From the NCBI RefSeq assembly GCF_008065115.1, contig NZ_CP042913.1, positions 3,033,827 to 3,097,826 on the forward strand: 64,000 nucleotides of DNA. The letters are read 5' to 3'. The position numbers were made by a program, and so were the translations under genes. Positions within the stretch are counted from its first letter, which is position 1. Each line of letters opens with the position of its first letter. This document shows, piece after piece, positions 31,631 to 47,567 of the stretch. The DNA comes from Bythopirellula goksoeyrii. Its GTDB lineage: Bacteria; Planctomycetota; Planctomycetia; Pirellulales; Lacipirellulaceae. The notes beneath the pieces are model-generated. The model saw only the letters and a program-made list of their open reading frames with translations. It was not told the DNA's origin and searched no databases.

Positions 31631-31703
31631 TCCCTGGTAGCTCAGTTGGTAGAGCAAGCGGCTGTTAACCGCTGGGTCGCAAGTTCGAGTCTTGCCCGGG
31701 GAG
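31631..31703 (+). tRNA. tRNA-Asn (anticodon GUU)
   Basis: A 73-nt cloverleaf. Acceptor TCCCTGG pairs with CCGGGGA (one T-G pair), anticodon arm AGCGG-CTGTTAA-CCGCT gives GTT, T arm GCAAG-TTCGAGT-CTTGC. CCA is not encoded. The 3' 42 bases double as attL of the integrative element. The T-stem differs from the element's other end by four bases that keep pairing, showing that the 3' half was swapped at integration. Confidence 0.95.
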
Positions 31704-31706
31704 CTT
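31662..31706 (+). repeat. attL (3' part of tRNA-Asn)
   Basis: Starts CTGTTAACCGCTGGGTCG in the anticodon loop and runs through the T arm and acceptor to GGGGAGCTT. It matches 47979-48023 at 41 of 45 positions. The four differences are two compensated T-stem pairs. Confidence 0.92.
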
Positions 31707-31820
31707 TTGTAAGTCTAAGCCGAACAACAAGTTATGTTACCTGACGGCGTTCGTCAGTGCGGCCTGAAAGTAGTGGTTTCTTAGGTAGACTACCTAAGAC
31801 CTAGCTTTGGAGGTTGCACA

Positions 31821-32999
31821 ATGGCTAACGCCGATTCTATTCGCGTGCCCGTCTACGGAAAGCACAAACCCACCGGACAAGCCCGAGTCCAGATCGACGG
31901 TCGGACTATCTATTTAGGCAAGCATGGCAGTGCTGCCAGCAAGGAAGCTTATCAGCGGATAACCGCAGAGTGGCTCCAAGCGGGGGGGAAGCTTGCCAGA
32001 CACCGGAATGAAGTCACCGTTGTCGAGATCATCGCTGCCTATATGCGGTTTGCGAGAACGTACTACCGCAAGAACCGTCAACCGACCAACGAAGTCTATT
32101 CGGTCAAGCGTGCTCTTGGTGTGGTCAAGGAATTATATGGCAGGGAACAGGCTAGTAAGTTTGGTCCTCTTGCCCTCAAGACGGTACGCCAAGCCATGAT
32201 CGAAAAAGATTGGTGCAGATCACAAGTCAACAAGCAAGTGGACAGGGTGAAGCGAGTGTTCAAGTGGGCAGTCAGTGAGGAAATGATTCCTGGCAGTGTA
32301 TTTGAGGCCTTACGCACCGTGACCGGATTACGCAAAGGCCGATCACAAGCAAAGGAAAGCTCACCAGTCAAGCCAGTTGCTAACGACGTGGTCGAAGCCA
32401 CTATTGAGAAGCTCCCCGAAATCGTGTCCGATATGGTCCAAGTGCAACGCCTTACTGGGGCAAGGCCCGGGGAAATCTGTGATATGCGGCCAGGGGACAT
32501 TAACCGGAAGCCCGACACCTGGGAGTACATTCCGCAGAGCCATAAGACAGAGCACCACGATCAGCCGAGAGTCATCTTCATTGGCCCCAAATGTCAGCAG
32601 ATACTCTTGAAATATCTGTTAAGACCAGCGGACTGCTATTGCTTCTCGCCCGCTGAGAGTGAAGCAAAGCGTAGAGCGGCACAGCACGAACAACGGCAAA
32701 CACCGCTGAGTTGCGGGAACAAACCGGGCAGCAATTGCAAGGTGAAACCACTTCGCACCTCAGGTGACAAGTACGACACCCGCAGCTATGGGCGGGCGAT
32801 TCGTAGAGCAGCTAAGGCTGCTGGCGTGCCTACTTGGTCCCCGCATCGACTCAGGCACAGTTTCGCTACTGAGGTCCGTAAGTCGCATGGTCTGGAAGCC
32901 GTGCAAGTTTGCTTGGGCCATTCCAAGGCCGATGTAACACAGGTTTATACGGCAAGAAACATGGCACTTGCTGCTGCTGTCGCGGCTGAGATTGGATAG
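31821..32999 (+). CDS. tyrosine recombinase (element integrase)
   Basis: A 392-residue phage-type integrase. The N-terminal arm-binding part (KPTGQARVQIDGRTIYLGKH) is followed by a SAM-like core-binding domain and the catalytic domain. Catalytic residues: Arg in LTGARPGEICDM (about 210), HxxR in SPHRLRHSFATEV (about 341-344), His in LGHSKADVTQ (about 366), Tyr in VYTARNMA (about 375). A Cys-rich insertion (DCYCFSPAESEAKRRAAQHE) lies between the motifs and is common in planctomycete integrases. It is oriented inward from attL and should catalyse integration at tRNA-Asn. Confidence 0.95.
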   Translation: MANADSIRVPVYGKHKPTGQARVQIDGRTIYLGKHGSAASKEAYQRITAEWLQAGGKLARHRNEVTVVEIIAAYMRFARTYYRKNRQPTNEVYSVKRALGVVKELYGREQASKFGPLALKTVRQAMIEKDWCRSQVNKQVDRVKRVFKWAVSEEMIPGSVFEALRTVTGLRKGRSQAKESSPVKPVANDVVEATIEKLPEIVSDMVQVQRLTGARPGEICDMRPGDINRKPDTWEYIPQSHKTEHHDQPRVIFIGPKCQQILLKYLLRPADCYCFSPAESEAKRRAAQHEQRQTPLSCGNKPGSNCKVKPLRTSGDKYDTRSYGRAIRRAAKAAGVPTWSPHRLRHSFATEVRKSHGLEAVQVCLGHSKADVTQVYTARNMALAAAVAAEIG

Positions 33000-33112
33000 A
33001 ATTTAGAACTGCCGAGTTGCGGACTAATTACCCGCACACGAACGACTGCATCGTGGCTGCAACCTTCACGGTGTCAGTCGGTCGGCTCGGTACCAAATCG
33101 AAAGGTTGCAAA

Positions 33113-33715
33113 ATGCACAATTCGACGAACACCAATCTGGCCATCAGCCAGCTCAAAAGCACTTCAGCAAGTGAACTCATTGCCCACTGCGACTTTCTGG
33201 AGCAAGGGATATTTGTTTGCCGGAACTGCAAGCATTGGATCCCCGGGCAACTTGAAGAGAGCTTGCTTGGCTGGTTGAAGACGCAAGGCATGACAAAGAC
33301 CGAGCTAGAAGCCAAGCTCCGGGAATTGAGTTCACTTTTGAAGTTGGCTGCAGAAGTTCATGAATGTGAATCGGCTGGCACCTTTGGGCGTTTGCGGTGG
33401 ACACCGTGGAATAAGCTTTTAACGGATCTGGCGGTCTCAAAGGCAGCCGCTGAGTTGCGGGCAAAACTCGCTTCTGAAGTTCTGGATATTGGCATCCCCG
33501 CAGGTGCCAGACCGATCATATGGTCGCGACCGATGAGCAAGAAGGATGCTGCGAAGTTGCTTGGCTGCCCGCATACTAAAAAAGCCGACTGGCTCAATAG
33601 TTGCATCAACTCGGGACTCTACCGAATCCGCTCTATCAATCGGCAGTCGATTCAATTTGATATGGAGACTGTCCCTGCTGAGCTAAGGGAAAAGTTTCAA
33701 CTCATGCCCAACTGA
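33113..33715 (+). CDS. hypothetical protein with putative HTH
   Basis: A 200-residue protein, start ATG 33113 preceded by GAAAGG. The N-terminal half has a CRNCKHWIPGQ Cys pair and a helical segment (GMTKTELEAKLRELSSLLKL); the C-terminal half has MSKKDAAKLLGCPHTKKADW and YRIRSINRQSIQFDM, which look like a winged-helix or excisionase DNA-binding motif. The frame upstream of this ATG starts with TTG and is less likely. Found directly after the integrase, so a regulatory or excision role is plausible. Confidence 0.6.
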   Translation: MHNSTNTNLAISQLKSTSASELIAHCDFLEQGIFVCRNCKHWIPGQLEESLLGWLKTQGMTKTELEAKLRELSSLLKLAAEVHECESAGTFGRLRWTPWNKLLTDLAVSKAAAELRAKLASEVLDIGIPAGARPIIWSRPMSKKDAAKLLGCPHTKKADWLNSCINSGLYRIRSINRQSIQFDMETVPAELREKFQLMPN

Positions 33716-33824
33716 CCCCCAACTGGCCCTATCTCGCCAGTAACTCGCACTAACTCGCCTTGCACCCCTTGGCGGTGGTTATGGTTGGTTCCGTTCTTTC
33801 ATTTTTTTGAGCGGAGACCAAAGC

Positions 33825-34115
33825 ATGAACATTCTTCAAGAAAAGCAGCTTACCTTGCCGCAGGCGGCCAAACAGCTGGGCGTGAATCCTTCCACTGTCT
33901 GGCGATGGACTCTTTCCGGAGTTCGTGGATGCAAGTTACAGACCATCTCGATTGGCGTGAAGAGATACACCTCCCAGGAGGCTATCGGGCGGTTCGTCGA
34001 ACGGACGACCGCAGCTGCACCTGGAGCGTCTTCCAATCTTCAGAGTCGCAGCCCTGCCAAGAGAGAACGTGACATTCAACGGGCGGTAAAAGATCTAGCC
34101 AAGATGGGTATTTAA
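33825..34115 (+). CDS. DUF1580-like helix-turn-helix regulator
   Basis: A 96-residue protein. LTLPQAAKQLGVNPSTVWRW followed by GCKLQTISIGVKRYTSQEAI is a MerR/excisionase-type DNA-binding domain of the DUF1580 kind, a family seen mainly in planctomycete mobile elements. GCGGAG precedes the ATG. The basic C-terminus (SPAKRERDIQRAVKDLA) may add DNA contacts. Likely an excisionase or transcription regulator of the element. Confidence 0.8.
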   Translation: MNILQEKQLTLPQAAKQLGVNPSTVWRWTLSGVRGCKLQTISIGVKRYTSQEAIGRFVERTTAAAPGASSNLQSRSPAKRERDIQRAVKDLAKMGI

Positions 34116-34126
34116 TTCCTCCAGCC

Positions 34127-34157
34127 CGTTGGGGCCACAAAAAAAGTGGCCCCAACG
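34127..34157. terminator. 12-bp perfect hairpin with A7 loop
   Basis: CGTTGGGGCCAC, seven A, then GTGGCCCCAACG. It lies between the DUF1580 and ParB-like genes. No T-run follows, so it may be an attenuator or protein-binding hairpin as much as a terminator. A related GGGGCC-centred hairpin lies near 34995-35022. Confidence 0.55.
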
Positions 34158-34195
34158 CTGAGACGCTGGGACCACTAAAAGAAAGACTCATTGAA

Positions 34196-34972
34196 ATGCA
34201 ATCTAGCACAAAATCTCAGGTGCAGGCAAACCCTCCGATCAAGATCAAAGCCACTGGCATCAAAGTTGAATTGATCCAGACTAGGGCTGAAATGTCAGAA
34301 GAGCACATTGCACATCTGACTGAACTGATCAAGCAGAAGAAAGATCTGCCACCAATCAGGATCTTTGCAGATGGCCAGGGTAGTGAATGGCTGACTGATG
34401 GCACCCACAGACTGGAAGCTGCACTGCGTGCAAAGGCTGCCATTCTGGTGCAGTATTTCCAGGGCAGCTATGAAGACGCGCTGGTGGATGCATGTGGGGC
34501 CAATCAAGAGCATGGACTGCGCAGGACCAATGCTGACAAGCGCTATGCAGTGGAACTGGCGCTGGAAGCATTTGGTGATCAGAGTGACCGAGCGCTGGCA
34601 GACATGTGTGGAGTCTGCAACGCTTTTGTTGGCAGTGTCAGATCTGATCGACTGTTAACCGTTAACAGTCAGATTCTGCCAGACTCTACAAAACAAGGGG
34701 AAACGAGAATTGGCAGGGATGGCAGAACATACAATGTGGCCAATCTGTCAAAGCCAGCTGCACCGATTGCCAGCACTGAAGATGGCGCCAAGCCAGCTGT
34801 CAAGCCTCGGTCAGCAAAGAAGAATGGATCACCAACCGTGAGCATCAAACAGCGCAAAGATCTGCAGCTGCATCTGGGAAAGCTGATCCGTGGATTCAGT
34901 GATGTGGGTCTGTTTGAAGCCAACAAAGCATGCTTTGATCAGCTGGCAGTGGCACTGAAAAAGCTGCAATAA
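34196..34972 (+). CDS. ParB-like protein
   Basis: A 258-residue protein. The ParB N-terminal (ParB/Srx) domain is visible in the first 100 residues: HIAHLTELIKQKKDLPPIRI, then SEWLTDGTHRLEAALRAKAA with the GTHRLEAA phrase. A middle region (SDRALADMCGVCNAFVGSVR) fits an HTH, followed by a GRDGRTYNVA linker and a Lys-rich C-terminus. It has no ParA partner in the element. Role may be plasmid-like maintenance or regulation. Unusually, its coding sequence contains a 19-bp palindrome (34651-34669) and a 20-mer that recur near the CRISPR array. Confidence 0.8.
   Translation: MQSSTKSQVQANPPIKIKATGIKVELIQTRAEMSEEHIAHLTELIKQKKDLPPIRIFADGQGSEWLTDGTHRLEAALRAKAAILVQYFQGSYEDALVDACGANQEHGLRRTNADKRYAVELALEAFGDQSDRALADMCGVCNAFVGSVRSDRLLTVNSQILPDSTKQGETRIGRDGRTYNVANLSKPAAPIASTEDGAKPAVKPRSAKKNGSPTVSIKQRKDLQLHLGKLIRGFSDVGLFEANKACFDQLAVALKKLQ
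34651..34669. promoter_or_regulatory. 19-bp palindrome inside parB-like gene
   Basis: ACTGTTA-ACCGT-TAACAGT, a perfect palindrome. Its core TGTTAACCGTTAACA recurs at 38183-38197. It is followed 8 bases later by GCCAGACTCTACAAAACAAG (34678-34697), which recurs inverted at 38063-38082. It may be a binding site for the ParB-like protein or the integrase: the first ten bases CTGTTAACCG also open the att core. Confidence 0.55.
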
Positions 34973-34994
34973 ACTTAACACACAAGGAGAAAAA

Positions 34995-35487
34995 CGCCCC
35001 AGCCGGAAAGCCCGACTGGGGCCATGTTCAGAAGCCAAGCTGCGCCACACTACTAGTTCAGCAAGGCAAGATCGAGTCGAACACTGCGATCAGGTGCTCT
35101 TCAATCTAGCACCAACATAGGCCTCTCAGCAATAGGCTAGTGCGTTCCGGGGATTCAGTCGTAGCCCGATTGTCTGCGGACAACAACGAACGACCTAAAG
35201 TCGTACAGCTGTCGAGCCATTGCGCAAGTAATGGTAATTCGTACGTGGTTGGGCCAAAAGCCCGTGATGCCACCAGCACGCCATCGGAGAAACCTCGTGG
35301 TAATCCTACCACCCGATGCAAAAGGTACCGGCAAAAGGTGAGGACCAGACCCGAATAGGGTAGTGGATAGTGTGCAGCCATAAATGCGGAGTGCCGGGGG
35401 GGGGTTCTATCCCGAGTGAAGTGTAAACCCTCCAAGGAGGGGCAAGGACATAACAGATCCAAGAGAAACTTGAGCAGGAGTTCAACC
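34995..35487. other. non-coding region with several hairpins (possible structured RNA)
   Basis: No gene seen in about 490 bp. It holds many short perfect stems: GCCCCAG/CTGGGGC near 34997-35022, TTGTC-TGCG-GACAA near 35170, CGAC-CTAAA-GTCG near 35190, GGGC-CAAAA-GCCC near 35253, GTGGTA-ATCC-TACCAC near 35297, CCCTCC-AA-GGAGGG near 35429. Such density is more than expected by chance and could be a structured RNA or a replication or packaging site. I recognise no known RNA family. Confidence 0.4.
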
Positions 35488-36036
35488 ATGAAAAAATACA
35501 AGTACAAGACCTACGAATCAGTGTGCACGGAATGTCGGACAATCACCAAGACATCGCAGGACGATTGGTTCCATGGGAAACTCAAGCCGCGCTGCTGCAA
35601 GTGTGGTGTCACATTGCAAAGCCGTGGCAAGGTGATCGGGAAGCCCAAGCACGTTAAGCGTCAAGGGACGAAAAAGAAGAAGCCCATGAAGGAAGCTTGC
35701 AAGGGACTGTTGGAAAAGTTCGACGATTACCAAGTGCACGCTCGACAACATGGTTTAATTCTGAGGTTGAAAGAAGTGCGTAGTCGTTGCAAGCACGTGT
35801 ACCACTTGATGGCCTATCGTGGTGAAGTCCAAGTTGCGAACTACTGGCCAAACACTGGCAACTTGTTCATCAATGAACAAAAAACGAAAGTGCAGTCTGC
35901 TGATGATGCGATGGCCATCATCGTTGACAAGTTTGGAAGACTGGAACATTGGAACACTGGAACACTGGATCCAGCGTTACCATTGAAGAGTGAACAGCAC
36001 GCACCACAGAGCACGCCAGACACTTGCACAGTTTGA
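35488..36036 (+). CDS. zinc-ribbon hypothetical protein
   Basis: A 182-residue protein starting MKKYKYKTYESVCTECRTIT with a second Cys group (PRCCKCGVTL), a CxxC...CxxC zinc ribbon in the first 45 residues. A Lys-rich linker (RQGTKKKKPMKEACKGLLEK) and a domain with YHLMAYRGEVQVANYWPNTG follow. The GGAG site before ATG 35488 supports the start. The 3' end includes DNA repeats (ACTGGAACATTGGAACACTG). Function unknown; zinc ribbons of this type occur in phage and element proteins that bind nucleic acid. Confidence 0.65.
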   Translation: MKKYKYKTYESVCTECRTITKTSQDDWFHGKLKPRCCKCGVTLQSRGKVIGKPKHVKRQGTKKKKPMKEACKGLLEKFDDYQVHARQHGLILRLKEVRSRCKHVYHLMAYRGEVQVANYWPNTGNLFINEQKTKVQSADDAMAIIVDKFGRLEHWNTGTLDPALPLKSEQHAPQSTPDTCTV

Positions 36037-36067
36037 GAACCGGGAAGAGACAGATCGAAGTGGTGCT

Positions 36068-36118
36068 CACGAAGAGTATCAAGTGGCATGATACCCTTCG
36101 TGTATTTCTGCGGAAATA
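36068..36118 (+). terminator. tandem hairpins, probable terminator
   Basis: A long stem CACGAAG-A-GTATCA with TGATAC-C-CTTCGTG (36068-36102) is followed at once by TATTTC-TGCG-GAAATA (36103-36118), whose C(UGCG)G loop is a UNCG-type tetraloop in RNA. They lie 32 bases after the zinc-ribbon gene stop and before the next gene. Confidence 0.6.
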
Positions 36119-36170
36119 GAGAGATTGCGTTTTTGTATTTGATAGCCTTCGTGAGAGAGGGACACCGATT

Positions 36171-36392
36171 ATGAGACTCCAAGCACCATCAGAGAGCACT
36201 GATGAAAAAGCCACCAGCAAACAGCAACTGCACCTGCCATTCCAGCTAGACAGGAAAGCAGAACAGCGTCGAAGAGTGAGCAAACTCATCGACAGTGTGC
36301 CACGAATCATGAAAGCCAGTGAGCTGGAACCACCAAGACCAAAGAAGAATTCAAGCTGCCAGAAGTGTGGCGACACAACACCCCTGTTTTGA
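36171..36392 (+). CDS. small hypothetical protein
   Basis: A 73-residue, very polar protein: basic middle (LDRKAEQRRRVSKLIDSVPR) and a C-terminal CQKCGD Cys pair. GAGGGA lies upstream of the ATG. I do not recognise it. It sits in a row of small plus-strand genes with good Shine-Dalgarno sites, as in phage-like modules. Confidence 0.5.
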   Translation: MRLQAPSESTDEKATSKQQLHLPFQLDRKAEQRRRVSKLIDSVPRIMKASELEPPRPKKNSSCQKCGDTTPLF

Positions 36393-36405
36393 AAAGGAGA
36401 GAACG

Positions 36406-36606
36406 ATGTCTGAACGAATCAAAGCCATGATGAACAAATCCATCCTGACATCCGAGGATGTTGCACACCTGTGCAAGCATGCAGGCCTAGGCGGGCCACT
36501 TCCCCTGCAGGATGCACCAGATGGCTGGAAAAAAGATACTATCCAACGCTGGGCAGAGAATACTGCCACGCGCAACCGAGTTGCCATTCCAATGAGTGAG
36601 TTTTAA
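36406..36606 (+). CDS. small hypothetical protein
   Basis: A 66-residue protein starting MSERIKAMMNKSILTSEDVA with an AAGGAGAG site before the ATG. Helical N-terminus, then DAPDGWKKDTIQRWAENTAT. No domain recognised. Two bases separate its stop from the next gene's ATG, so the two are probably cotranslated. Confidence 0.55.
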   Translation: MSERIKAMMNKSILTSEDVAHLCKHAGLGGPLPLQDAPDGWKKDTIQRWAENTATRNRVAIPMSEF

Positions 36607-36608
36607 CC

Positions 36609-37076
36609 ATGAAAATCAAATTCTCAGGAATCGTTGCCACCCAAAATCAAGTCCACCAAAGATCCCCTGGACTGTGGGTGATGTCTGATCTGGATGGCAT
36701 GAAGTTCACAGAGCACGTGGAGCTGAGGACGGATCATGATCTGCCGGAATCCAGAGTGATTGGCTACATGACCGACCATTGGCGGGAACGCTCTGTGATG
36801 ATGGCGGAGTTCATTGCATTTGGAGCGGATGTTCAGACCTGTGATTTAATCAGGCAGATCATGTCACGCAGACTGTGCGCCCTGTCAATCGGGTATTTCT
36901 GCTCAAAACGAAAGACCATCAAGCCCAATACGAAAGTCTGGATTGGTAATCGGGATTATTATTCTGGGGAATCGGGAATGGAGCTGCACCAAAAGAGTTT
37001 GATCCATGAAGTCAGCTTGACGAAAGATCCTGTTGATGCCAGATGCTGCATCGAACGCTTTCAAAAGATTGGTTGA
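36609..37076 (+). CDS. HK97-family prohead protease-like protein (S78)
   Basis: A 155-residue protein with the layout of phage prohead proteases: RTDHDLPESRVIGYMTDHW carries the catalytic His followed by the IG turn, RRLCALSIGYFC carries the Ser-Ile-Gly-[YF] motif, and IHEVSLTKDPVDARC is the final E-[VI]-S-L-x-x-x-P element. In phages this enzyme matures capsid and scaffold proteins. No capsid, portal or terminase gene is seen here, so the element may be a phage satellite that acts on a helper's capsid, or a relic. The assignment rests on motif order. Confidence 0.65.
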   Translation: MKIKFSGIVATQNQVHQRSPGLWVMSDLDGMKFTEHVELRTDHDLPESRVIGYMTDHWRERSVMMAEFIAFGADVQTCDLIRQIMSRRLCALSIGYFCSKRKTIKPNTKVWIGNRDYYSGESGMELHQKSLIHEVSLTKDPVDARCCIERFQKIG

Positions 37077-37188
37077 AAATGGAAGATGTTCACCAGCCAG
37101 CAGTTTGGTCCCCGAACCAACTTTTTTGTGAGATGAGATTTAATCCCTGGCAGATGAGCTGCCAACACACACTTTTGAACTGGAGTGA

Positions 37189-37797
37189 ATGAAGATGAGT
37201 GCACTAGCAAGCCTGAAGAGAACCCTGACCAAGAACAGGACCACTTCCCAGAAGAGCTACGGTGAGATTGTGGCAGCACTTGGTGAAGATAACAAAGTGG
37301 CAACAGAAGTTGTGCAGGCAGCTCTGCAGGCCTCTGGCTGCACAGCTGAGCAACTGGAAGCAGATGTCAAACTTTATCTGGAACGCAAAGAGAGAATTGC
37401 CACGCTGGTTGAATGTCGTAAGGCAAAAGCAGAGTGCAACGAATTGGAAGCTCAGATGAAAGCTCTGCAGCAGGAATCTGATGCAGTCAATCAGAAACTG
37501 AATGAGCGCCACAGTGATCTTCGCATCAAGCTCTCAGAATCCATCTATCGGATCCAACGCAAAGAATGGATTGAGCAAAAGTTGCAGGACACCGCACCAG
37601 ATTGGACAGCTGAAAGGCTGGCTGTGATCCAAGAGCAACGGATGATGTTGGGCAAACAACTCCAACAGATGGAATGCTACGGGGACACTTCGAACAATCA
37701 CGACGCCAGAGAAATCAAAGCTGAGCTAGCAAACCTGGATGCAGCAACAGAGAAGATCAGAGCATGTCAGTTGGAAGTGTGGCCAGTAGAAGACTGA
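37189..37797 (+). CDS. coiled-coil hypothetical protein
   Basis: A 202-residue, mostly helical protein. Heptad-like sequence runs through ECRKAKAECNELEAQMKALQ and RIQRKEWIEQKLQDTAPDW to the end. There is no membrane segment or known domain. Position directly after the protease-like gene matches that of scaffold proteins in phage capsid modules, but that is inference. ATG 37189 and ATG 37195 are both possible starts. Confidence 0.55.
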   Translation: MKMSALASLKRTLTKNRTTSQKSYGEIVAALGEDNKVATEVVQAALQASGCTAEQLEADVKLYLERKERIATLVECRKAKAECNELEAQMKALQQESDAVNQKLNERHSDLRIKLSESIYRIQRKEWIEQKLQDTAPDWTAERLAVIQEQRMMLGKQLQQMECYGDTSNNHDAREIKAELANLDAATEKIRACQLEVWPVED

Positions 37798-38089
37798 GAT
37801 AGCTCCCGGCATGGCCGCAGCTGGCCCTTCGACACAAGTCAGCTGCGGTTCGTGCCGACTGTATTGGGGTGATCACACCATGGTCAGGCTAGGGTGCCCC
37901 CCTAGTTAGGTTCTTGGAAAACCGGATACCGGGGGTCTGCGTAGCAGAGATCGGAAGACTTTTATTCACACACCATTTTTGGGGGTGGTAAGTAAGGCAC
38001 GGATCTGGTGCCAGCCAGCCAGCATCAGGTGCTTCTTTCCGCAGTCCATTTTCAGAAAAGTACTTGTTTTGTAGAGTCTGGCAAAACAG

Positions 38090-38110
38090 TGTTGGAATCC
38101 GTTTCCAACA
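38090..38110. repeat. palindrome 1 with TCCGT centre
   Basis: TGTTGGAA-TCCGT-TTCCAACA, eight-base arms. On the minus strand it is followed after seven bases by the 20-mer shared with the parB-like gene (38063-38082). Confidence 0.75.
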
Positions 38111-38146
38111 GCAGGGCCTGATCCTGCACCTGCTGATCTTCAATTG

Positions 38147-38167
38147 AACTGGCATCCGTTGCCAGTT
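38147..38167. repeat. palindrome 2 with TCCGT centre
   Basis: AACTGGCA-TCCGT-TGCCAGTT, eight-base arms of different sequence from palindrome 1 but with the same five-base centre. Confidence 0.75.
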
Positions 38168-38178
38168 GATCAGTGAAT

Positions 38179-38201
38179 CAGGTGTTAACCGTTAACACCT
38201 G
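38179..38201. repeat. palindrome 3 with ACCGT centre
   Basis: CAGGTGTTA-ACCGT-TAACACCTG, nine-base arms. It shares the 15-bp core TGTTAACCGTTAACA with the palindrome at 34651-34669. Confidence 0.75.
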
Positions 38202-38390
38202 CACATCTGATCAGCCGCTGGGAATCCCATTGCAGAGAGCACCAGAAGCAGCCAGAATACTGGTGTCAAAAGCAACGCCCCGCTGGGGCCAAGCAAAACA
38301 GTTTCTATGTCGAATCTAAACAGAAAAAAGAGTGCAGCCCTGCACGGGTGTTCGGTATCCGTATCCTGGGCCAACGAATGTTTACATTCC

Positions 38391-39032
38391 CCTTCAATTC
38401 GGGCCCGCTAGGCGGGCTGTTACGCCGTCGCAACACGATCAACGCCGCCGAGCCACAGGCCTTCAATTCGGGCCCGCTACGCGGGCTGTTACATCAGGAA
38501 TGGGGGATACCCTCTCATCTAGGGGACCTTCAATTCGGGCCCGCTACGCGGGCTTTTACATGCAAACAGTAGGTAACGCTGTCAGCAGTGTATACCTTCA
38601 ATTCGGGCCCGCTACGCGGGCTGTTACGGTATCGGAGATGATTCGGTCGATGCATTTGCCTGCCTTCAATTCGGGCCCGCTACGCGGGCTGTTACCATGC
38701 AGTCCGGTGATGCTATCCGTATCCTCATCCCTTCAATTCGGGCCCGCTACGCGGGCTGTTACGACGACACGAACTACGCGAGCCGAGACGACATCGTCCT
38801 TCAATTCGGGCCCGCTACGCGGGCTGTTACGTTGCCTTGGTATCTACCGTAGAGGCATCGTCATTCCTTCAATTCGGGCCCGCTACGCGGGCTGTTACCT
38901 GTGCCGGGCACCGTGCTCGGGATTGCAATAGGCCTTCAATTCGGGCCCGCTACGCGGGCTGTTACCAGGCGAATAAATAACCAGGATCACATTCATCAAC
39001 CTTCAATTCGGGCCCGCTACGCGGGCTGTTAC
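38391..39032 (-). CRISPR. CRISPR array, 10 repeats of 33 bp, 9 spacers
   Basis: Repeats start at 38391, 38460, 38527, 38595, 38663, 38730, 38798, 38866, 38933 and 39000. On the plus strand each begins CCTTCAATTCGGGCCCGC and ends TACGCGGGCTGTTAC. The hairpin GCCCGC-TAC-GCGGGC is the likely Cas6-type site. Spacers are 34-36 bp and all different. Repeat 1 has C-to-G in the hairpin loop and repeat 3 has G-to-T near the end. The minus strand is probably transcribed: read that way the repeat ends GAATTGAAGG, like the 5' handles of type I systems, and the degenerate repeat then lies at the distal end. Leader side is the right, next to csb1. Confidence 0.95.
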
Positions 39033-39298
39033 GGCCACCAACATAACTCGTTATCTAGCAAAGGGTAAAGTCGGGGAAATCGCGAACCTGGGTGTTTTCT
39101 GTCAAAGAGCGAAGCCTCCTTCAGCTATACCAAGACCGAACTAGAGTGTTAGCAACAGGTTAGCGAATTCGCGAACCTCCCTATTATTTCGTGGCCACTT
39201 GCTATTCGCGGCTAAAGTCGAACAATCAGGGCCTGAACCATATTGATCAATCCTTGGACTGCCACTTTTTCGGGTTGATACTCAAGCGGAGTAGCCAA
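39033..39298. promoter_or_regulatory. CRISPR leader and divergent cas promoter region
   Basis: A 266-bp region between the array and csb1. On the minus strand there is a TTGACA (39105-39100), about 68 bases upstream of the first transcribed repeat, a candidate -35 box; the -10 is not clear. CGCGAACCT occurs twice (39081-39089 and 39170-39178), a possible regulator or leader motif. The csb1 promoter should also lie here. Confidence 0.6.
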
Positions 39299-40381
39299 AT
39301 GAAGCTAAAAGATTTCAGCAAGGTTTTACAATCGTCGACAGTCCTGAGATCTCGCAATCGCCTCCAGCCTGCGGGTGGCAACGGCGACGTTGTTTACCCT
39401 CCTACTTATAGCGAAGGAAGCACGAGACATTTCAGAAGGATTGATGGAGAAAGTCGGACATGTGTTCTCTTGGACGCAGTCACTTCTCAAGCGAATCGAA
39501 TGGAACAGGCTCTTCGCGACTCCTCGATTACTACGCCGCATCTTTCCGTCAATGTCGGCAACTACCATCTGACCTCGTACGATGTTCCCCATCGAATATG
39601 TGATGCCATATTAAGGGGCTGTACTCTGGACGGTGTTCCTTATTTGAATTCTTCTGTAGGAAAAGCAATCCTGAATCACGATGTCAGGGAAATATTTGGT
39701 TATTCACCTTCATCCTTGCTTTTCGGTTTTTGGCACAGCAATCGTACCGGTGGAGTGGGAATCAAGGTTCCCCGATCAATTGCCTCTGAGATTGTTGCCG
39801 TGGATGTAGAGAATGCCCCCCACACTGCTAGTCGAATTGATCAATTACCTATCAGCAAAGCATCCAAAGTTGAAAGCATTAAGAAGCCCGATGTCGTTGC
39901 AAAAGAAGGATGGGATTGGCGACTCAACGCCAAAGGTAAAAAACCCTCTGAAGCCTTGTTGGGTAATATTCCTCCCAGCATCACCGATGACCGTGGCATC
40001 ACTATGGATTATGCCCTTCAGTGCGTGAGTATAAGCCTTTCTTCGCTGAGAAGTTTATCACTTGGAAACGATTCCGAAGTAGGGGTAAATTTTCTAGCAG
40101 CTTTGGGAGTCGCTGGGTTTGCAGAAGCATTTTCTAAAGGTTGTCGACTGAGGTCGCGGTGTGATTTACTACCGGAGAGTCAATATGTTTGGGAGGCTCT
40201 CTCAGGGCCAGAATCGGTTAGCCTTGGGGAAATCTCTTCGGAAGTCGCTTTGGGTCTGTTGGAGGAATCCATATCTGACGTGAAGAAAGCTGGACTGCCC
40301 TGGCATGAGACAACAATGCTCGAACCTAGCGACGATTTACTAAAGCTTGTAGAAGAAGGTGTTCAGTCAATCGGAGTGTGA
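39299..40381 (+). CDS. csb1: type I-G Cas7 (Csb1)
   Basis: A 360-residue RAMP-type backbone protein. The Csb1 signature CVLLDAVTSQANRMEQAL lies near residues 57-75, with HLTSYDVPHRICDAILRG and SSLLFGFWHSNRTGGVGIKV typical of the GSU0053 family. GGAG lies 8 bases before ATG 39299; the longer frame upstream belongs to the leader. Six or so copies would coat the crRNA in the effector complex. First gene of the cas operon; its TGA is one base before the likely TTG start of csb2, so the genes are coupled. Confidence 0.92.
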   Translation: MKLKDFSKVLQSSTVLRSRNRLQPAGGNGDVVYPPTYSEGSTRHFRRIDGESRTCVLLDAVTSQANRMEQALRDSSITTPHLSVNVGNYHLTSYDVPHRICDAILRGCTLDGVPYLNSSVGKAILNHDVREIFGYSPSSLLFGFWHSNRTGGVGIKVPRSIASEIVAVDVENAPHTASRIDQLPISKASKVESIKKPDVVAKEGWDWRLNAKGKKPSEALLGNIPPSITDDRGITMDYALQCVSISLSSLRSLSLGNDSEVGVNFLAALGVAGFAEAFSKGCRLRSRCDLLPESQYVWEALSGPESVSLGEISSEVALGLLEESISDVKKAGLPWHETTMLEPSDDLLKLVEEGVQSIGV

Positions 40382-40382
40382 G

Positions 40383-41669
40383 TTGCTGGGAATCACAGTC
40401 GAATATGTTGCAGGGGTCGCACACTTAGACCGCCAGGCTTACGATGAGCCAGGGCACGTAGAGTGGCCACCCCATCCAGACAGGTTATTTATGGCCTTGG
40501 TCGCTGCAATGTATCGCGGGGAGCCTCAGCCTGCTGAGCTGGAAGCACTAAGCTGGCTTGAAGGCCAACAGCCACCGGCAATTTCGGCCTCTCCCACTAA
40601 TGATCGAAGCACTTTAACTGCTTACTGGCCCACCAACGATAAGCTTTACGCAAATAGGAATAAAGAAAAGCTGCTTGCAGCAACTTGCCCAGATGATCCA
40701 TGCGTTACTTACTGGTGGGACGAAAAACCCAAAGAAGAGCTTCTTGAAGCTTTGCGAAATGTGACATCCCGAATGACTTACTTGGGACGTTCAGAATCGA
40801 TTGTAAATTGTTGGGTAGAGGAAGGAAAACGGACTGCAGCTTGGATTCCTGATGACCAGGGTGTACTCAAGATGCGGGTACCCTATCAAGGTCGACTTTC
40901 AGAATTGCAAGCTTTCTATGCTGCAGGCAACAGACCCCAACCAGCTGCATGGCACGGTTATCGAAATACACACTCACCTGAAACTATACAAGGCGAGTGG
41001 TCACAGCTGATCCCATTGGAGCTTGGAAAACCTGTAGATCTTCGACAAGTGTGTCCGCTTATTGAAGCAGTCCGAAAATGTTTTTTGGCAGCTTGTGAAG
41101 AGCCAATGCCTTCCTGGCTTAGTGGTCACACCAAAAATGGAGACAGACTTCAAGCAAGCCACGTGGGTCTAGTTCCACTGGCTGATGTAGGCAATCCGTA
41201 CTCAAGTGGAATTGTCTACGGTGTAGGGTTAATGATTCCCAAAAGTATTGATGCAGTGGCTGCCTCACTCGCATTGGCTCCATTTCTTGAGAAGACGTCT
41301 TGGATTGATGCCAAGACAAGTATCGGAAAAGTGGAGTCTCTGCGAAAGACAGTGTTTGCAGATACATGGTGCCGAGCATCTAAGACCTGGGGAACTGTCA
41401 CACCAATTCTTTTGCCTAGATGGCCAAAACAAGAAAGTGTGGATAGTCTTCTGCTCAAAGCAATCGAACAAGCAGAGCTGCCAGTCCCAGAATCAATCGA
41501 GATTCTGCAATCCTCTCCTCATCGAGGTGGTCTCGGAATGGAGTTGGTTTCTCCCCCAAATCGGTATCGGCTCCACGCAACTATTAAGTGGCAATCCTCC
41601 TTAGCTGGCCCCGTAGCAATTGGCTCCGGAAGATACAAAGGCCTTGGATTCTGCAAGGCAATATTGTGA
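40383..41669 (+). CDS. csb2: type I-G Cas5-Cas6 fusion (Csb2)
   Basis: About 428 residues. LGITVEYVAGVAHLDRQAYD, then HVEWPPHPDRLFMALVAAMY is the Csb2/GSU0054 start; the C-terminal half with HATIKWQSSLAGPVAIGSGR and YKGLGFCKAIL carries the glycine-rich loop of a Cas6-like RAMP domain. It is expected to cut the pre-crRNA at the repeat hairpin and hold the 5' handle. Start placed at TTG 40383, with GGAG six bases upstream, because family members begin with this beta-strand; a GTG at 40359 inside csb1 is the alternative. Its TGA overlaps the GTG of cas3. Confidence 0.9.
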   Translation: MLGITVEYVAGVAHLDRQAYDEPGHVEWPPHPDRLFMALVAAMYRGEPQPAELEALSWLEGQQPPAISASPTNDRSTLTAYWPTNDKLYANRNKEKLLAATCPDDPCVTYWWDEKPKEELLEALRNVTSRMTYLGRSESIVNCWVEEGKRTAAWIPDDQGVLKMRVPYQGRLSELQAFYAAGNRPQPAAWHGYRNTHSPETIQGEWSQLIPLELGKPVDLRQVCPLIEAVRKCFLAACEEPMPSWLSGHTKNGDRLQASHVGLVPLADVGNPYSSGIVYGVGLMIPKSIDAVAASLALAPFLEKTSWIDAKTSIGKVESLRKTVFADTWCRASKTWGTVTPILLPRWPKQESVDSLLLKAIEQAELPVPESIEILQSSPHRGGLGMELVSPPNRYRLHATIKWQSSLAGPVAIGSGRYKGLGFCKAIL

Positions 41670-44035
41670 ACTTCAATGATTGGTTTTCAGATGTTTGGGG
41701 TTACGAGCCTTTTCCGTGGCAGTCGAGGTTGTCCGAACTAGAAGAATGGCCTGCTGCAATCGCTGTTCCAACCGGCTGCGGGAAAACCGCAGTAATCGAT
41801 GTTTGGCTGTGGCGTTGGTTGGAAGGTAGGGCTAATCGACGGTGCTGGTACATAGTTGATCGTCGTGTGCTCGTTGACGCGGCCTTTGAACGGGCATCTC
41901 ATCTTATTAGAGAGTCAGGAGCAGATGTAGATGTTTTGAGACTTCGAGGGGGTGTCTTTGACGAACGTCCTCTACTTTCTCCGAGTCGACCAGCTGTCAT
42001 TTGCTCCACCGTTGACCAGTTTGGATCTCGACTTCTTTTTCGTGGGTATGGAGTTGGGCGTTCCGGTAGAGTTTTGGAAGCTGCACTTGCTGGCGTCGAT
42101 TCACTTGTGGTGATTGATGAGGCTCATCTTTCCGAACCATTGAATGAGACAATCACGTCAGCAGTATCACTTGGAGCAGATATTAGACTTTCGCCAATGA
42201 CAGCTACACCGAGATGTGCCGAAGGCGAAATACTTAACCTTAATGAGAGCGACTTAGGTCATCCAATTTTGGCGAGTCGGCTTCACGCACAGAAAATAGC
42301 CCATTTGGTAACAGGGAGCCTAGCACAGCACGCCGAGCAACTTCGCAAATCAGGGGCACAATCAATTGCCGTTTGGTGCAACACCGTAGACGAAGCAATC
42401 GAGAATGCAAAGAAACTACGTCAAATCGGAGAAACGGTACTCTTTACGGGTCGTCAACGGGAGTTTGATCGAATAGCGTTGCTTAAAGAATGGGGTCCAA
42501 TGTTGGAATCCAACTCATCGAGCGAGTCTCCCAAAGTTTTTGTTGTAACGACTCAGTCACTTGAAGTGGGTGTCGATTGGGATTTCGATGCCTTGGTAAC
42601 TGAATGTGCAAGCATCGATGCTCTTAAACAACGCTTTGGTCGACTCGACAGGATCGGTAAGCGAACCCAGACCGAGGGGAAAATTATCAAGCCCCCCAGC
42701 AAACCCAAAGTCTATGGTGATTCGGCTCTAGCTACTTGGAAATGGTTGACGGCCAATGCTGAGAAAAGCATGATAGACTTTGGCATCACTTCGCAAAGCA
42801 AGTGGGAAGTCCCACTAGAGTGCAGTCTGCCTCTAGTACCTCCGCCCCTATTACTCCCAGCTCATCTCAATGCGTGGGTTTTGACAAGCGAGACAATTGA
42901 TCTCGATGTTAGCCCGTGGTTACACGGCGAACAGGACGAACAAGATTGCCGCATCTGTTGGCGAAATGACTTTGAGGGAGACAATTCGGATTGGGTCGAG
43001 CGTATCAATGCAGTTCCACCAGCAATTTTGGAGACTGCAAACGTACCAATCTACAGTGTGCAAAGAGCCGTAAAGGAACCTCTGGTCATTTGGCGAGGAC
43101 GTGAGGATGTTGCGGTTAGAAATGCAGAAGACATCCAACCGGGTGATGTTGTTATTCTTCCTGCAGGCTCAGGATATTTTGAGTTAGCATGCATGATTTC
43201 GGAGGAGACTCCAGACATTTCGGAAATAGTGGAACCTGTTTTTCGCCTTACAAAAGAGAGACTGGAAAGAGAAGGACTAGAAAGTGGTGTCGACTTGGAA
43301 TCCGTGGCACTGCACGAGATACTCGAATTGCTTCCCGAAGCTGTGAAGGAACGCTTAGGAGACAGCGTTGAAGTACGTCCCTATCCTGATGGTCTTGTTC
43401 TGGCTGCCAAGCAGACTTCTCTTTCCGTACAAAGTGGAAAACCAGTTTCTCTTGAACAACATAGCAAAGAAGTAACGGAACTAGCACAATCTATCGCAAC
43501 TGATTTGGACTTACCCTCGAAAGAAGTTATTCGATTAGCTGCATGGTGGCACGACACTGGCAAAGCAGATCCTAGATTTCAAGCGTGGCTGCAAGGAGGC
43601 TTTGCAGTTCATAAAGAATTCCTAGCGAAGAGTGGTCAAACGTGGCTGCAAATGCTTGCTGCAAGACAGCAGGCCGCTTATCCTTCAGGACGTCGACATG
43701 AGTTCTTGTCAGCTAAGCTATTCTCCATAAGCAAAGACGCCTGTGAAGTGGAAGATATTGATTTGGCACTTCATCTCATCGAGTCGCACCACGGATGGGC
43801 AAGACCTACCTATCCATTACCTTCCGATGAGTGCTCCCCAAATGTGGAATTAACCTGGGATAGGGAACATCTTAGCGTTAGAGCAGATGAGCATGTAGCA
43901 GATGAGAATCGACTTTGGCGACTCATTGATCGTTACGGATATTGGGGACTTGCACTTTTAGCATCGGTCGTACAGTTTGCTGACAGAGAAACTAGCCGTA
44001 GGGAGAGTTATGGAACTACCCGGATTGAGAGCTGA
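41666..44035 (+). CDS. cas3: type I-G Cas3 helicase-nuclease, HD at C-terminus
   Basis: A 789-residue protein. SF2 helicase first: Walker A VPTGCGKTAVI (about residues 34-43), DEAH box VIDEAHLSEP (about 150), motif III SPMTATPR, and motif VI QRFGRLDRIGK. The HD nuclease domain is at the end: EQHSKEVTEL (about 596), AWWHDTGKADPRFQAWL (about 624-640) and LIESHHGWARP. This order, helicase then HD, is the type I-G arrangement and opposite to type I-E. It starts with GTG at 41666, overlapping the csb2 stop (GTGA). It should unwind and degrade DNA bound by the crRNA complex. All key residues appear intact. Confidence 0.93.
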   Translation: MNFNDWFSDVWGYEPFPWQSRLSELEEWPAAIAVPTGCGKTAVIDVWLWRWLEGRANRRCWYIVDRRVLVDAAFERASHLIRESGADVDVLRLRGGVFDERPLLSPSRPAVICSTVDQFGSRLLFRGYGVGRSGRVLEAALAGVDSLVVIDEAHLSEPLNETITSAVSLGADIRLSPMTATPRCAEGEILNLNESDLGHPILASRLHAQKIAHLVTGSLAQHAEQLRKSGAQSIAVWCNTVDEAIENAKKLRQIGETVLFTGRQREFDRIALLKEWGPMLESNSSSESPKVFVVTTQSLEVGVDWDFDALVTECASIDALKQRFGRLDRIGKRTQTEGKIIKPPSKPKVYGDSALATWKWLTANAEKSMIDFGITSQSKWEVPLECSLPLVPPPLLLPAHLNAWVLTSETIDLDVSPWLHGEQDEQDCRICWRNDFEGDNSDWVERINAVPPAILETANVPIYSVQRAVKEPLVIWRGREDVAVRNAEDIQPGDVVILPAGSGYFELACMISEETPDISEIVEPVFRLTKERLEREGLESGVDLESVALHEILELLPEAVKERLGDSVEVRPYPDGLVLAAKQTSLSVQSGKPVSLEQHSKEVTELAQSIATDLDLPSKEVIRLAAWWHDTGKADPRFQAWLQGGFAVHKEFLAKSGQTWLQMLAARQQAAYPSGRRHEFLSAKLFSISKDACEVEDIDLALHLIESHHGWARPTYPLPSDECSPNVELTWDREHLSVRADEHVADENRLWRLIDRYGYWGLALLASVVQFADRETSRRESYGTTRIES

Positions 44036-44801
44036 TAGCTTACTAGGATTTCTTGCAGCATTAGGAGCCTGCAGAACACTGGAGGTAGGTCTTGCATGGC
44101 GAAAGAGTGGACCCTTTTGGATAGCAGACATTGACACTGATGATCCCTTTGAAGTTGTAGTTTCTCAACTGCTACAAACATGCCAAACATTTCCAGCTCA
44201 GTTCAGCCAACTGGCTGAGACGGATCCGGCACTTAAATTTGAAGAGGGTGTAAACAAGTGGCGAGAATTCGCACTCCAGTATCCTGACTGGGCTTGTGCA
44301 ATTGGCTGTGAGGCTGGAGAAGATTTCCGAAGGTCTCCAATTTTGATGAGCAAAGGGGGTGGCCATCAGCATCCTCTAAAGATGGTGCAAGGACAATGTT
44401 CTAAGATTTCAAGAGAAGATATTGAGCTGGCGTTGCTTGGCCCGTGGAAGCGAATCCCCGATTGTGGGCTTAGATTGGATCCCCTCGAAAATCGACCACA
44501 TGCAGACAATTGGTCTGACCCCAGCATCAAGAATCAAGACTCTCAAATTGTCGCGTTGGGGCCGACACGGCTGGCATTCGAGTCATTCCCGCTAGTCCCT
44601 ACGCTGAATCGAAGCCTACACGCGATTTTTGATCGTACTGGTAAGATTGTGTCGTGGGCCCTCTGGGAGAACTATCTACTACCCAGAGCGATTACGGCTC
44701 GCTTGTTCACGAGTCCACCTGCGTATGTTTCTTCACGTCGACACATTTCCAAAGGTAACTGGTCTGTATCTCCAGCCAAAGCAGTAGGGAATAGTCGATG
44801 A
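44010..44801 (+). CDS. small Cas8-like / Cas3-extension family protein
   Basis: A 263-residue protein whose start MELPGLRADSLLGFLAALGA then CRTLE resembles the N-terminus of type I-G large-subunit or Cas3-extension proteins. ACAIGCEAGEDFRRSPILMS, ESFPLVPTLNRSLHAIF and SWALWENYLLPRAI match the general plan of that group. It is much shorter than Csx17 (usually above 600 residues). It overlaps cas3 by 26 bases and closes the cas operon. It is the only candidate for PAM recognition and complex completion in this locus. Exact family name is uncertain; the C-terminal 30 residues look polar and may be altered. Confidence 0.65.
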   Translation: MELPGLRADSLLGFLAALGACRTLEVGLAWRKSGPFWIADIDTDDPFEVVVSQLLQTCQTFPAQFSQLAETDPALKFEEGVNKWREFALQYPDWACAIGCEAGEDFRRSPILMSKGGGHQHPLKMVQGQCSKISREDIELALLGPWKRIPDCGLRLDPLENRPHADNWSDPSIKNQDSQIVALGPTRLAFESFPLVPTLNRSLHAIFDRTGKIVSWALWENYLLPRAITARLFTSPPAYVSSRRHISKGNWSVSPAKAVGNSR

Positions 44802-45123
44802 GATTTTCGAAGAAACCGTGCGGATTGTCGGAGGAGGGAGATGCAGAAATGAGTAAGGAAGTAAAAAAAGGAAGTAGCGGCGGTTGATAAAGCCGCTGTA
44901 CTTGGGTGCCTCAAAAGCAAACAGAGCACCATTCGGAGCGAGGAAGACGGGGCATCTCGGAAAGTGCCTCAGCCGATGAGGCTGACACAACGCAGCTTTG
45001 GCCTGGAACTTCATACAGCGTGGCATGCCTGCTGTCAATTGAAATGCTTCTAATTTTCCGTAACATTGATTCAGTGGTATCTATATCTTCTTTTTATGTT
45101 TGGCAACAAGGTAGGACATAAAA
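44802..45123. other. intergenic region after cas operon
   Basis: No gene seen in 320 bp. It has a hairpin AGCGGC ... GCCGCT at 44876-44897 without a T-run, possibly the end of the cas transcript. An open frame on the minus strand (44733-45038) lacks a start and is not protein-like enough to call. Confidence 0.5.
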
Positions 45124-45660
45124 ATGACTGACAATCACAGCATCACGGGAAACCCGCCTGATTCAGGGTCAACCGGTGGTTCAAGATCGATCAAGCTAGA
45201 ACACACCTCGAAAAAGAAACTGATTGAGCTTTGGTACATTGAGCCTTTGGAGAGGATGAATGGCCATGAGGCTTTTGTGTGTCTCAGTGTCTGCCTTTTC
45301 CTTTACGAAAAGTATTTGAGAATGACTTCCCAAATTGGGCAGGAGGAAAGTTTTTCAGAAGGGCACGAAGTCTTCAAATTAATCGGCAAGGATCTGGAGA
45401 TCCCTGCCGACGATGCTTACGAGTTCTGGACGTGCTGGCGAAATGGCCTTGCTCATCGCGGAATGCCAAATAAGAGTGAAAAGTACAAGTGGGGCCTGAC
45501 TGGTCAACAGCAGAAGCGTGTCGTGATTGGGGAGGGTCATTTCACGATCAATCCATGGTTCATCCGTGATATGATTCTCAACAAAGTGAAAAACAAGAAG
45601 CAGATTTGGGAAGATGAGCTTTCACCATTTATGAAAGTCTTCCACTTGGTAGAGCCCTAG
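45124..45660 (+). CDS. HEPN-motif hypothetical protein
   Basis: A 178-residue protein. FWTCWRNGLAHRGMPN contains RNxxxH (Rx4H with Asn after Arg), the catalytic signature of HEPN ribonucleases, at about residues 111-116 within a helical domain (FVCLSVCLFLYEKYLRM, HEVFKLIGKDLEIPADDAY). AGGA lies 7 bases before the ATG. HEPN proteins are often toxins or defence effectors, and the place right after the cas operon suits a cargo or CRISPR-linked toxin. No antitoxin (MNT) gene is adjacent. Function is inference from one motif. Confidence 0.6.
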   Translation: MTDNHSITGNPPDSGSTGGSRSIKLEHTSKKKLIELWYIEPLERMNGHEAFVCLSVCLFLYEKYLRMTSQIGQEESFSEGHEVFKLIGKDLEIPADDAYEFWTCWRNGLAHRGMPNKSEKYKWGLTGQQQKRVVIGEGHFTINPWFIRDMILNKVKNKKQIWEDELSPFMKVFHLVEP

Positions 45661-45794
45661 CAAGGAGTCGCTCGTAGAGCCTGACCCACCGCGAGTTAGA
45701 GGCATCAAGATCGTTTCAACAGCAACACGCAGTTAAGACTCACGTCCTCTGTCAGGCGTAGGAGGACCTCGACGTGAGACGCGTCCGGCGTGCT

Positions 45795-46254
45795 TTAGCC
45801 ACCACCTCGCCGCTTGGCAGCCGCTTGGTGGGCCTCCACAGTCTTCGCTTGCGATTCCTTCCATGGTTGCCGATAGATCGGCTCAATTTCGGCCCAGTTA
45901 TAGACACGTTAGAGTGCTTTACGAAAGAAGTTCCGCCCCGGCCAGATTGATGACCTAGGAATAAATCTGGCTGATACTACCTCGCGGCGGAGTGCCAAAT
46001 CTCGGAACTTAGTTGGGAATGCCCAACTAGCCGCGGTCGATAAAGCCTTCGAACTTAGCGGGAGGCAGTTATCGTCAGCGGTTGTGCGGACCGAAGCTAG
46101 AATTGGGTCTTCAAGAAACGAATTGGACACATCAAAGCCGATGCCTTCTAAAACGGCGACAACGCTCCTCGCAGATTCCAATCCCCAAGCTATAATTTGA
46201 CAGTCAAGTCGATCACGGAGGCCAATAGCTTCGAATAACTCAACGTCGTCTCCC
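45795..46254 (-). pseudogene. decayed gene fragment with in-frame stop
   Basis: One minus-strand frame reads VELFEAIGLRDRLDCQIIAW, ESARSVVAVLEGIGFDVSNS, then a TAA after NFFRKAL, and continues in the same frame RVYNWAEIEPIYRQPWKESQ before a final stop. There is no ATG at the beginning; an in-frame TAG lies just upstream. The protein-like composition on both sides of the TAA suggests a broken gene. I do not recognise the family. Confidence 0.35.
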
Positions 46255-46884: not shown

Positions 46885-47291
46885 TCTTGACCTCTCATTC
46901 AAAGCTAAAAAGCATAATCGCGAAGCGAGTAGCTACAGGATGTATCTTGATCAATACCATTAGTTAGGAGCAGTCTAGTCGAAGTAGAGTCAGCACTCAA
47001 TCCTTCCGCTTCAACGCAAGATGAGCTGCTAGAACTATGGTACATGGCATCACACATCTTGCGAACGCTTATATCTATCTCAGCAGACGAAGATGGAAAC
47101 GTAAACCGATTTCGATATTCGAAAGGATTATTTAATTGTTCCGGCAATGCAAATAGATATCTCCGCTGATAAGCTTTGCTTCGGGATCAGTTTTCCGGTT
47201 CCAATATATCCACAATGTATAGGGCATCGGCATAATCGTCTTTCCCAGTCTCCGGAGTTCGGTTGGGTATCACTGACAAATGGGCCAGCTA
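46885..47291. other. intergenic region, nothing recognised
   Basis: About 400 bp without a supported gene. Short frames on both strands start only at TTG and have skewed composition. Confidence 0.4.
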
Positions 47292-47492: not shown

Positions 47493-47567
47493 GGGCGGAG
47501 CGGGTGTGAGAACACCTATCAGGCGTCAGCATCGATTCTGGAGGCATCCTCGATGATCCATGTTGAT

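Follow-up and report, generated by a model that had tools for sequence, protein, structure and literature searches.

Palindromes in and near a ParB/StrR-like gene of Bythopirellula goksoeyrii as probable recognition sites of the encoded protein

RESULTS

An integrated element with four odd-centred palindromes

We analysed a stretch of 64,000 nucleotides of the genome of Bythopirellula goksoeyrii (contig NZ_CP042913.1, positions 3,033,827 to 3,097,826), hereafter called the window, to which all coordinates refer. It carries a probable tRNA-Asn-integrated element of ~16.3 kb with imperfect end repeats (31681-48020). One border is formed by the 3′ end of tRNA-Asn (31681-31703, plus strand), and an imperfect copy of this end with 20 matches in 23 positions (47998-48020, plus strand) is the probable other border. 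The tRNA is followed by a tyrosine integrase gene (31821-32999), a gene for a DUF1580 excisionase-like HTH protein, a parB-like gene (34196-34972, plus strand), small unknown genes, a noncoding stretch with three palindromes, a CRISPR array of 10 repeats (38391-39033, plus strand), and type I-G cas genes (39191-44801), in which Csb1, Csb2, Cas3g, and the Cas3-extension were recognized by NCBIfam. Among the element proteins scanned, from which some small reading frames were left out, neither Cas1/Cas2 nor ParA was found. The probable att copies of the element lie away from the palindromes. A group II intron with a reverse transcriptase/maturase is located just past the probable right border (48511-50391).

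A palindrome scan of the window confirmed the four odd-centred palindromes of an earlier note on this DNA where that note places them, three of them beside the type I-G array and the fourth inside the parB-like gene; none is assigned to a strand. The in-gene palindrome (34650-34670), the putative cognate site, reads GACTGTTAAC-C-GTTAACAGTC and has the form GACTG-N11-CAGTC. Cluster palindrome 1 (38090-38110; TGTTGGAA-TCCGT-TTCCAACA, also written TGTTGGAATC-C-GTTTCCAACA) forms 9 of 10 pairs and has an outer half-site, TGTTG, outside the main classes described below. Cluster palindrome 2 (38147-38167; AACTGGCA-TCCGT-TGCCAGTT, of the form AACTG-N11-CAGTT) is one base away from AACTGGCATCCGATGCCAGTT, the in-gene site of the relative L418. 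In cluster palindrome 3 (38179-38201; CAGGTGTTAAC-C-GTTAACACCTG) the inner half-site TTAAC (TTAACCGTTAA) is identical to that of the parB-like gene's own site, and the outer half-site AGGTG is of the GRDG class. Two of the three cluster palindromes contain a T.T opposition near the centre; otherwise all three are intact. The TCCGT centres noted earlier for palindromes 1 and 2 were found again, whereas the "loop ACCGT" ascribed to palindrome 3 and the in-gene palindrome understates them, because in both only one central base is left unpaired. Of 19 palindromes in the 64-kb window with arms of at least 8 nt (loops of 0-9 nt), 3 fall within the 112-bp cluster; the cluster palindromes are not due to chance.

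The in-gene palindrome and cluster palindrome 1 share a neighbour, the 20-nt word TTGTTTTGTAGAGTCTGGCA, which occurs twice in the window as an exact copy (34677-34696, minus strand; 38064-38083, plus strand), 6 nt from the palindrome and with the same arrangement relative to it in both cases; no copies are expected in shuffled sequence. That the word is a widespread motif was rejected: its first 19 nt had no match in viral contigs and genome contigs, and, when up to one mismatch was tolerated, a 17-nt core occurred once each in 2 of the genomes of 96 other relatives. The 19-nt core of the in-gene site had no second copy at up to 3 mismatches in the 6.47-Mb host genome, in which a backwards control pattern gave 14 matches per strand.

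Two further inverted repeats were observed in this part of the element. A perfect one, CGTTGGGGCCAC-AAAAAAA-GTGGCCCCAACG (34127-34157), lies just 5′ of the parB-like gene and is a candidate terminator or second operator. The other, the odd palindrome TCTTAGGTAG-A-CTACCTAAGA (31779-31799), lies between the tRNA gene and the integrase gene and is possibly an integrase operator or arm site.

The ParB/StrR-like protein

The parB-like gene encodes a protein of 258 amino acids that matched phrog_1033 (ParB-like, E 1.1e-12) and no Pfam family at E 0.01, the ParB N-terminal domain profile included. The top Foldseek matches of its AF2 model were Noc (7nfu, 8.1e-06), ParB (6sdk), and KorB (8qa9). C-terminal to the ParB-like domain the model places HTH helices at residues 112-126, 131-138, and 142-159, and this predicted order of a ParB-like N-terminal domain and a tri-helical HTH is the one by which StrR-like regulators are defined. 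The recognition-helix residues C141, N142, A143, and F144, at offsets -8 to -5 from the anchor R149, are encoded at 34616-34627 (plus strand). The centre of the in-gene palindrome lies 20 nt past the anchor codon, and the palindrome itself encodes residues 152-159, the end of the last predicted HTH helix, where model confidence drops (mean pLDDT of 62 for block 151-160 and below 50 for residues 157-167). It is followed by the codons of a GRDGRTY motif (34712-34732, plus strand), flanked in the model by strands 170-172 and 178-180.

A palindrome recurs at a fixed place in related genes

At the level of the order, 22 of 296 genomes, among them the host genome itself, held a relative of the parB-like gene; relatives were also present in 93 of 397 genomes of the class and, at a loose threshold, in 117 of 392 genomes of the phylum, as well as in 82 plasmid records and hundreds of viral contigs (best 80 of each search kept). 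A search with the parB-like protein against genome contigs gave 67 candidate stretches and no confirmed relative. From 436 profile matches, 291 distinct genes with the HTH anchor and enough flank were obtained, and 282 were left after removal of near-copies with >95% identity.

Palindromes with differing arms at the same spot in the gene were already evident in many of the 30 loci inspected first. Among 127 distinct genes, 46 perfect odd palindromes were centred 0-30 nt past the last HTH residue, whereas the remaining 30-nt bins, out to 420 nt, contained 3 or fewer each. With a palindrome called at a score of at least 7 and a position 3-48 nt past the anchor, 169 of the 282 genes carried one after the HTH codons, compared to 61 of 1,971 control windows from the same genes; these gene sets share ancestry, and thresholds and motif patterns were set after sequences had been seen. 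The peptides encoded across the palindrome vary (STVDS, GEIPQ, SDSDS, and others), which indicates that it is the DNA and not the peptide that is kept. As the earlier note held, the palindromes look functional and their arms covary.

No palindrome above the threshold was present in 113 of the 282 genes; such a site was absent in 7 of 14 plasmid loci and in the cyanobacterial loci L157, L159, L162, and L453. ATCT-type palindromes follow the HTH in one Chloroflexota locus (L158) and in two other cyanobacterial loci (L160, L452). A viral subclass (L050, L052, L056, L059, L060, L065, L069) had no palindrome after the HTH and a similar even palindrome with arms GTGGAAAC or TTGGAAAC ~300 nt past the HTH anchor, perhaps the same principle in another layout. 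In one genome (G640 contig 1, 2.776-3.089 Mb) five parB-like genes (L166 to L170) lie ~65-83 kb apart, perhaps in tandem related prophages; the in-gene palindromes of L166, L169, and L170 are perfect and comprise three distinct sets of arms.

The recognition helix predicts the inner half-site

Residues of the recognition helix, numbered from the last HTH arginine, were compared with bases numbered from the palindrome centre in the 129 odd-centred sites. Thr at residue -5 was accompanied by A at base -1 in 50/50 cases, and Phe by C in 44/47. At residue -7, Glu (20/21) and Asp (13/13; 33/34 together) went with C at base -5, Gln with A (12/12), and Asn with T (12/13). Lys at residue -6 was paired with G at -4 in 29/30 cases and Pro with A at -3 in 17/17; Asp at residue -8 was paired with G at -3 in 22/22. 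His at residue -7 (G 34, T 9, A 1, C 1) was less decisive, and Thr and Ser at residue -6 were mixed. All 9 genes with the helix DHKT had the inner half-site GGGAA. Coupling was strongest between residue -5 and base -1 (z 36.6), followed by residue -7 and base -5 (z 30.8) and residue -6 and base -4 (z 16.1). When the nearest helix was used to predict inner bases, and genes sharing more than 9 of 12 residues were excluded, a fraction of 0.71 was correct (0.69 and 0.65 with stricter exclusion), compared to a baseline of 0.35 and to 0.42 with non-core control residues. There is no overlap between the palindrome and the helix codons, which precede it.

In a tree built without the HTH, from the N-terminal domain alone, the base went against the rule in none of 8 tests. 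Counted as independent pairs on the tree, Asp/Glu with C held in 7/7 (p 0.016) and Lys/Arg with G in 6.3/7 (p ~0.03). The other single rules had 3-5 independent pairs on supported branches and mostly did not reach p 0.05; for Phe versus Thr/Leu/Met the base was unchanged in 2.3/4 pairs. In the window gene, N142 predicts T at -5, F144 predicts C at -1, and the GRDG motif predicts RACT, and all three are found in its site. As a separate observation, the gene of L041 contains two successive sites (685-790) with the inner half-sites TCAAC and TCGGA, of which only the first fits its helix SHQF, possibly a record of a past helix replacement.

The downstream motif is coupled to the outer half-site

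The outer half-site varied with the motif encoded just past the site. KHG occurred with CACT in 52/56 genes, RNG with ATCT in 11/11, TGK with TACT in 6/6, and RDG-type motifs, the class of the window gene, with RACT (24) or AGGT (11) in 35/45; 51 of the 169 site-bearing genes fell outside the motif patterns and are unclassed in these counts. Mutual information between motif and outer half-site was 0.85, compared to at most 0.17 in 2,000 shuffles. As independent pairs, KHG/CACT agreed in 6.5/8 with none opposite (p ~0.016), RNG/ATCT in 5/5, and TGK/TACT in 4/4, and RDG/RACT was weak (2.4/4). As the motif adjoins the site in the DNA, joint transfer is a partial alternative explanation for this coupling. 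A ParB-like protein, named along with the integrase for binding assays in the earlier note, is the likely partner of the palindromes.

Sites outside the genes and the cluster beside the CRISPR array

In 273 loci (1.90 Mb), 108 sites of this type were located inside parB-like reading frames and 13 outside, and an off-register control with the right arm taken 17 nt off gave 3 sites. The phage-like locus L169 has five sites within ~440 bp, ~6 kb from its gene, two with the gene's own inner arms; the outer halves are CATACT in three and ATCT in two. In L029, identical in location to L177, three sites lie outside the parB-like gene, all with ACGTGG. A cluster in L431 lies inside parB-like reading frames, since this locus has a second parB-like gene. 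Outside the parB-like gene of L115 (10107-10124), the back-to-back palindromes ACGTGGGGAA-A and ACGTTCGGAA-A are unlike its site and are perhaps sites of another protein.

Compared with the rules read for the window protein, the cluster at 38090-38201 has C at -1 in 3/3 palindromes, T at -5 in 1/3, and a GRDG-class outer half in 2/3. These palindromes thus fit the window protein in part, and the cluster is best read as a group of further members of this class of sites, relaxed in part. Its minus strand has a gene-like reading with stops (GALCNGIPSG*SDVQVLTVNT...VLPDSTKQ). It is possible that the cluster arose by copying of the gene segment, given the shared 20-nt word, the same spacing, and this broken reading; protein similarity to the own gene beyond the word is not significant (13 amino acids, E 0.23), so that a copy stays a suggestion.

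Comparison with StrR, ParB, and other known systems

StrR is described as a ParB-like domain with a tri-helical HTH, and its relatives are described as activators (PMC10886168); the StrR site has the consensus GTTCGActG(N)11CagTcGAAc (PMC8306873). The window protein shares with StrR the domain order and a GRDG motif after the HTH, and the ACTG-N11-CAGT spacing recurs in the in-gene site and in cluster palindrome 2. In contrast to the StrR site, the flanks of 34650-34670 lack GTTC/GAAC, so that the full 9-bp arms GTTCGACTG/CAGTCGAAC are not present, and the inner 11 bp are themselves palindromic. The window gene also differs in being part of a tRNA-integrated CRISPR island rather than a neighbour of antibiotic genes.

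When seven actinobacterial loci were scanned with the published consensus, allowing up to 4 mismatches, a StrR-like box was found inside the reading frame itself, after the HTH and before GRDG, in four: L156, L448, and L450 with 2 mismatches each and L449 with 4; none was found in L161, L447, and L451. The box of L156, GTTCAACTG-N11-CAGTTGAAC, lies 21 nt past the HTH. There was one extra match with 4 mismatches elsewhere in L448, and an arm-reversed control had no match in any locus. The genes of L448 and L449 have other stretches of equal or higher symmetry, the box being singled out by the consensus alone. The inner pairs in Streptomyces are not fully palindromic (3/5 in L156), so an additional factor may underlie the complete inner symmetry seen elsewhere. 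Retzlaff and Distler reportedly placed a StrR site inside strR already in 1995.

For ParB and Noc, a four-residue specificity switch has been described (PMC7383237), and parS and NBS are 16 bp long. The family studied here resembles these systems in its ParB-type fold, in a recognition helix that would enter the major grooves of a palindrome, and in the few residues that set specificity; it differs in that its sites are ~21 bp, mostly odd-centred, very varied, and gene-embedded, and in that no ParA was seen. Canonical parS has another sequence than the window sites, which are 21-23 bp and odd-centred. Divergent ParB-like proteins frequent on plasmids and prophages also make up the orphan ParB-CTPase-fold proteins of a PNAS survey of 2025 (PMC12704722), in passages of which no cognate sites are described and in the main text of which no word starts with "palindrom" or "StrR". 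The open-access literature searched, a body without most subscription papers, offered no description of gene-embedded cognate sites in the ParB/StrR-like family or of residue-to-base rules readable from such sites. The kind of protein and the core site are already known.

DISCUSSION

Our results suggest that the ParB/StrR-like protein of the element very probably recognizes the palindromes as duplex DNA. As a homodimer, it would place one HTH on each half of the palindrome, the recognition helix would read the inner five base pairs, and the second element encoded just past the site, here GRDGRTY, would probably read the outer half-site (ACTG/AGGTG). Because two identical subunits would read both halves, the arms would change symmetrically and covary. 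In much of the family the coding sequence itself holds the presumed cognate site, in the short segment that separates the HTH codons from the downstream motif, so that gene and site would travel and change together. The in-gene site might serve autoregulation and/or ParB-like loading, and the cluster at 38090-38201 might provide further loading or regulatory sites by the CRISPR locus.

The earlier note had read the changing arms with preserved pairing as selection on a folded form, with a conserved CCGT centre recognized as a loop, and had considered a regulatory RNA. The preserved pairing itself holds: only 59 of 1,871 pairs in the 169 palindromes are not Watson-Crick, and in 34 overlapping, non-independent pairs of close relatives with at least 70% upstream identity we counted 65 double changes that kept pairing, 13 single changes, and 10 at other positions. 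L019 (GTGGTAACCGTTACCAC) and L045 (GTGTCAACCGTTGACAC), for example, differ in the arms and are nearly identical in the flanks. Hairpins of the parB mRNA, a small RNA, or extruded, loop-recognized DNA cruciforms could produce such covariation. Selected RNA stems are, however, expected to tolerate G.U, and the 1,871 pairs include 5 of the G.U type against 12 of the A.C type, which is the mirror image of G.U on the other strand; the scoring weighted all mismatches equally and so did not disfavour G.U against A.C. Both the gene's own recognition helix and the downstream peptide motif predict the arms, as expected of a double-stranded site bound by a dimer, the centre changes with the helix (C at -1 with Phe, A with Thr) instead of being a conserved loop, and no Rfam family was matched at the palindromes at gathering score. 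The wobble counts and the helix coupling led us to reject an RNA or cruciform hairpin, and we regard selection on any folded form as highly improbable; covarying palindromes do not necessarily imply folded RNA or DNA. Slightly less credible still is a palindromic mobile repeat without a partner protein that was repeatedly inserted into the gene family, for which Rickettsia palindromic elements and REPs are models. Two sites in the gene of L041, a second site past the stop in L031, and the clusters outside genes would fit such a repeat, but not the fixed place after the HTH, the coupling to helix and motif, the preponderance of sites inside parB-like frames, or the single occurrence of the own site's core in the host genome.

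Within the preferred reading of protein-bound duplex sites, it is conceivable, and to us a somewhat doubtful version, that they are parS-type loading sites of a partition-like clamp that would serve mainly element maintenance and not gene control. The fold matches to ParB, Noc, and KorB and the few sites outside the gene agree with this, and parS sites are palindromes often close to par genes; the lack of ParA among the element proteins scanned, the departure from the canonical 16-bp parS, and the description of StrR relatives as activators speak against it. With respect to the CRISPR-side cluster, we consider it unlikely that it is the dead remnant of a second parB-like copy that binds nothing. 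The exact 20-nt word at the same spacing and the interrupted minus-strand reading would be expected of such a remnant, and a plain pseudogene was dismissed because the protein similarity is not significant; moreover, the three palindromes are intact apart from the T.T in two of them, and L169 and L029 likewise have clusters outside their genes.

Matched sets of DNA-binding proteins and sites usually come from experiment. Here, many relatives with a matching site in their own gene allow DNA-reading residues to be matched to bases, giving more than 100 matched pairs with simple, testable rules (Thr to A, Phe to C, Asp/Glu to C, Gln to A, Lys to G). We propose with considerable reserve, as a rather unlikely but far-reaching extension of the sequence comparisons, that in this family of phages, plasmids, and islands the regulator and its in-frame cognate site form a self-contained specificity cassette that diversifies and moves as a unit, that ~130 natural pairs expose its amino-acid-to-base code, and that the extra sites by the type I-G array may serve the ParB-like protein as loading points for controlling or insulating the CRISPR locus. 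The finding bears on why StrR-type boxes sit inside the genes of StrR-like proteins, on the role of the orphan ParB-like proteins of mobile elements, and on how DNA-binding specificity may evolve without loss of the target.
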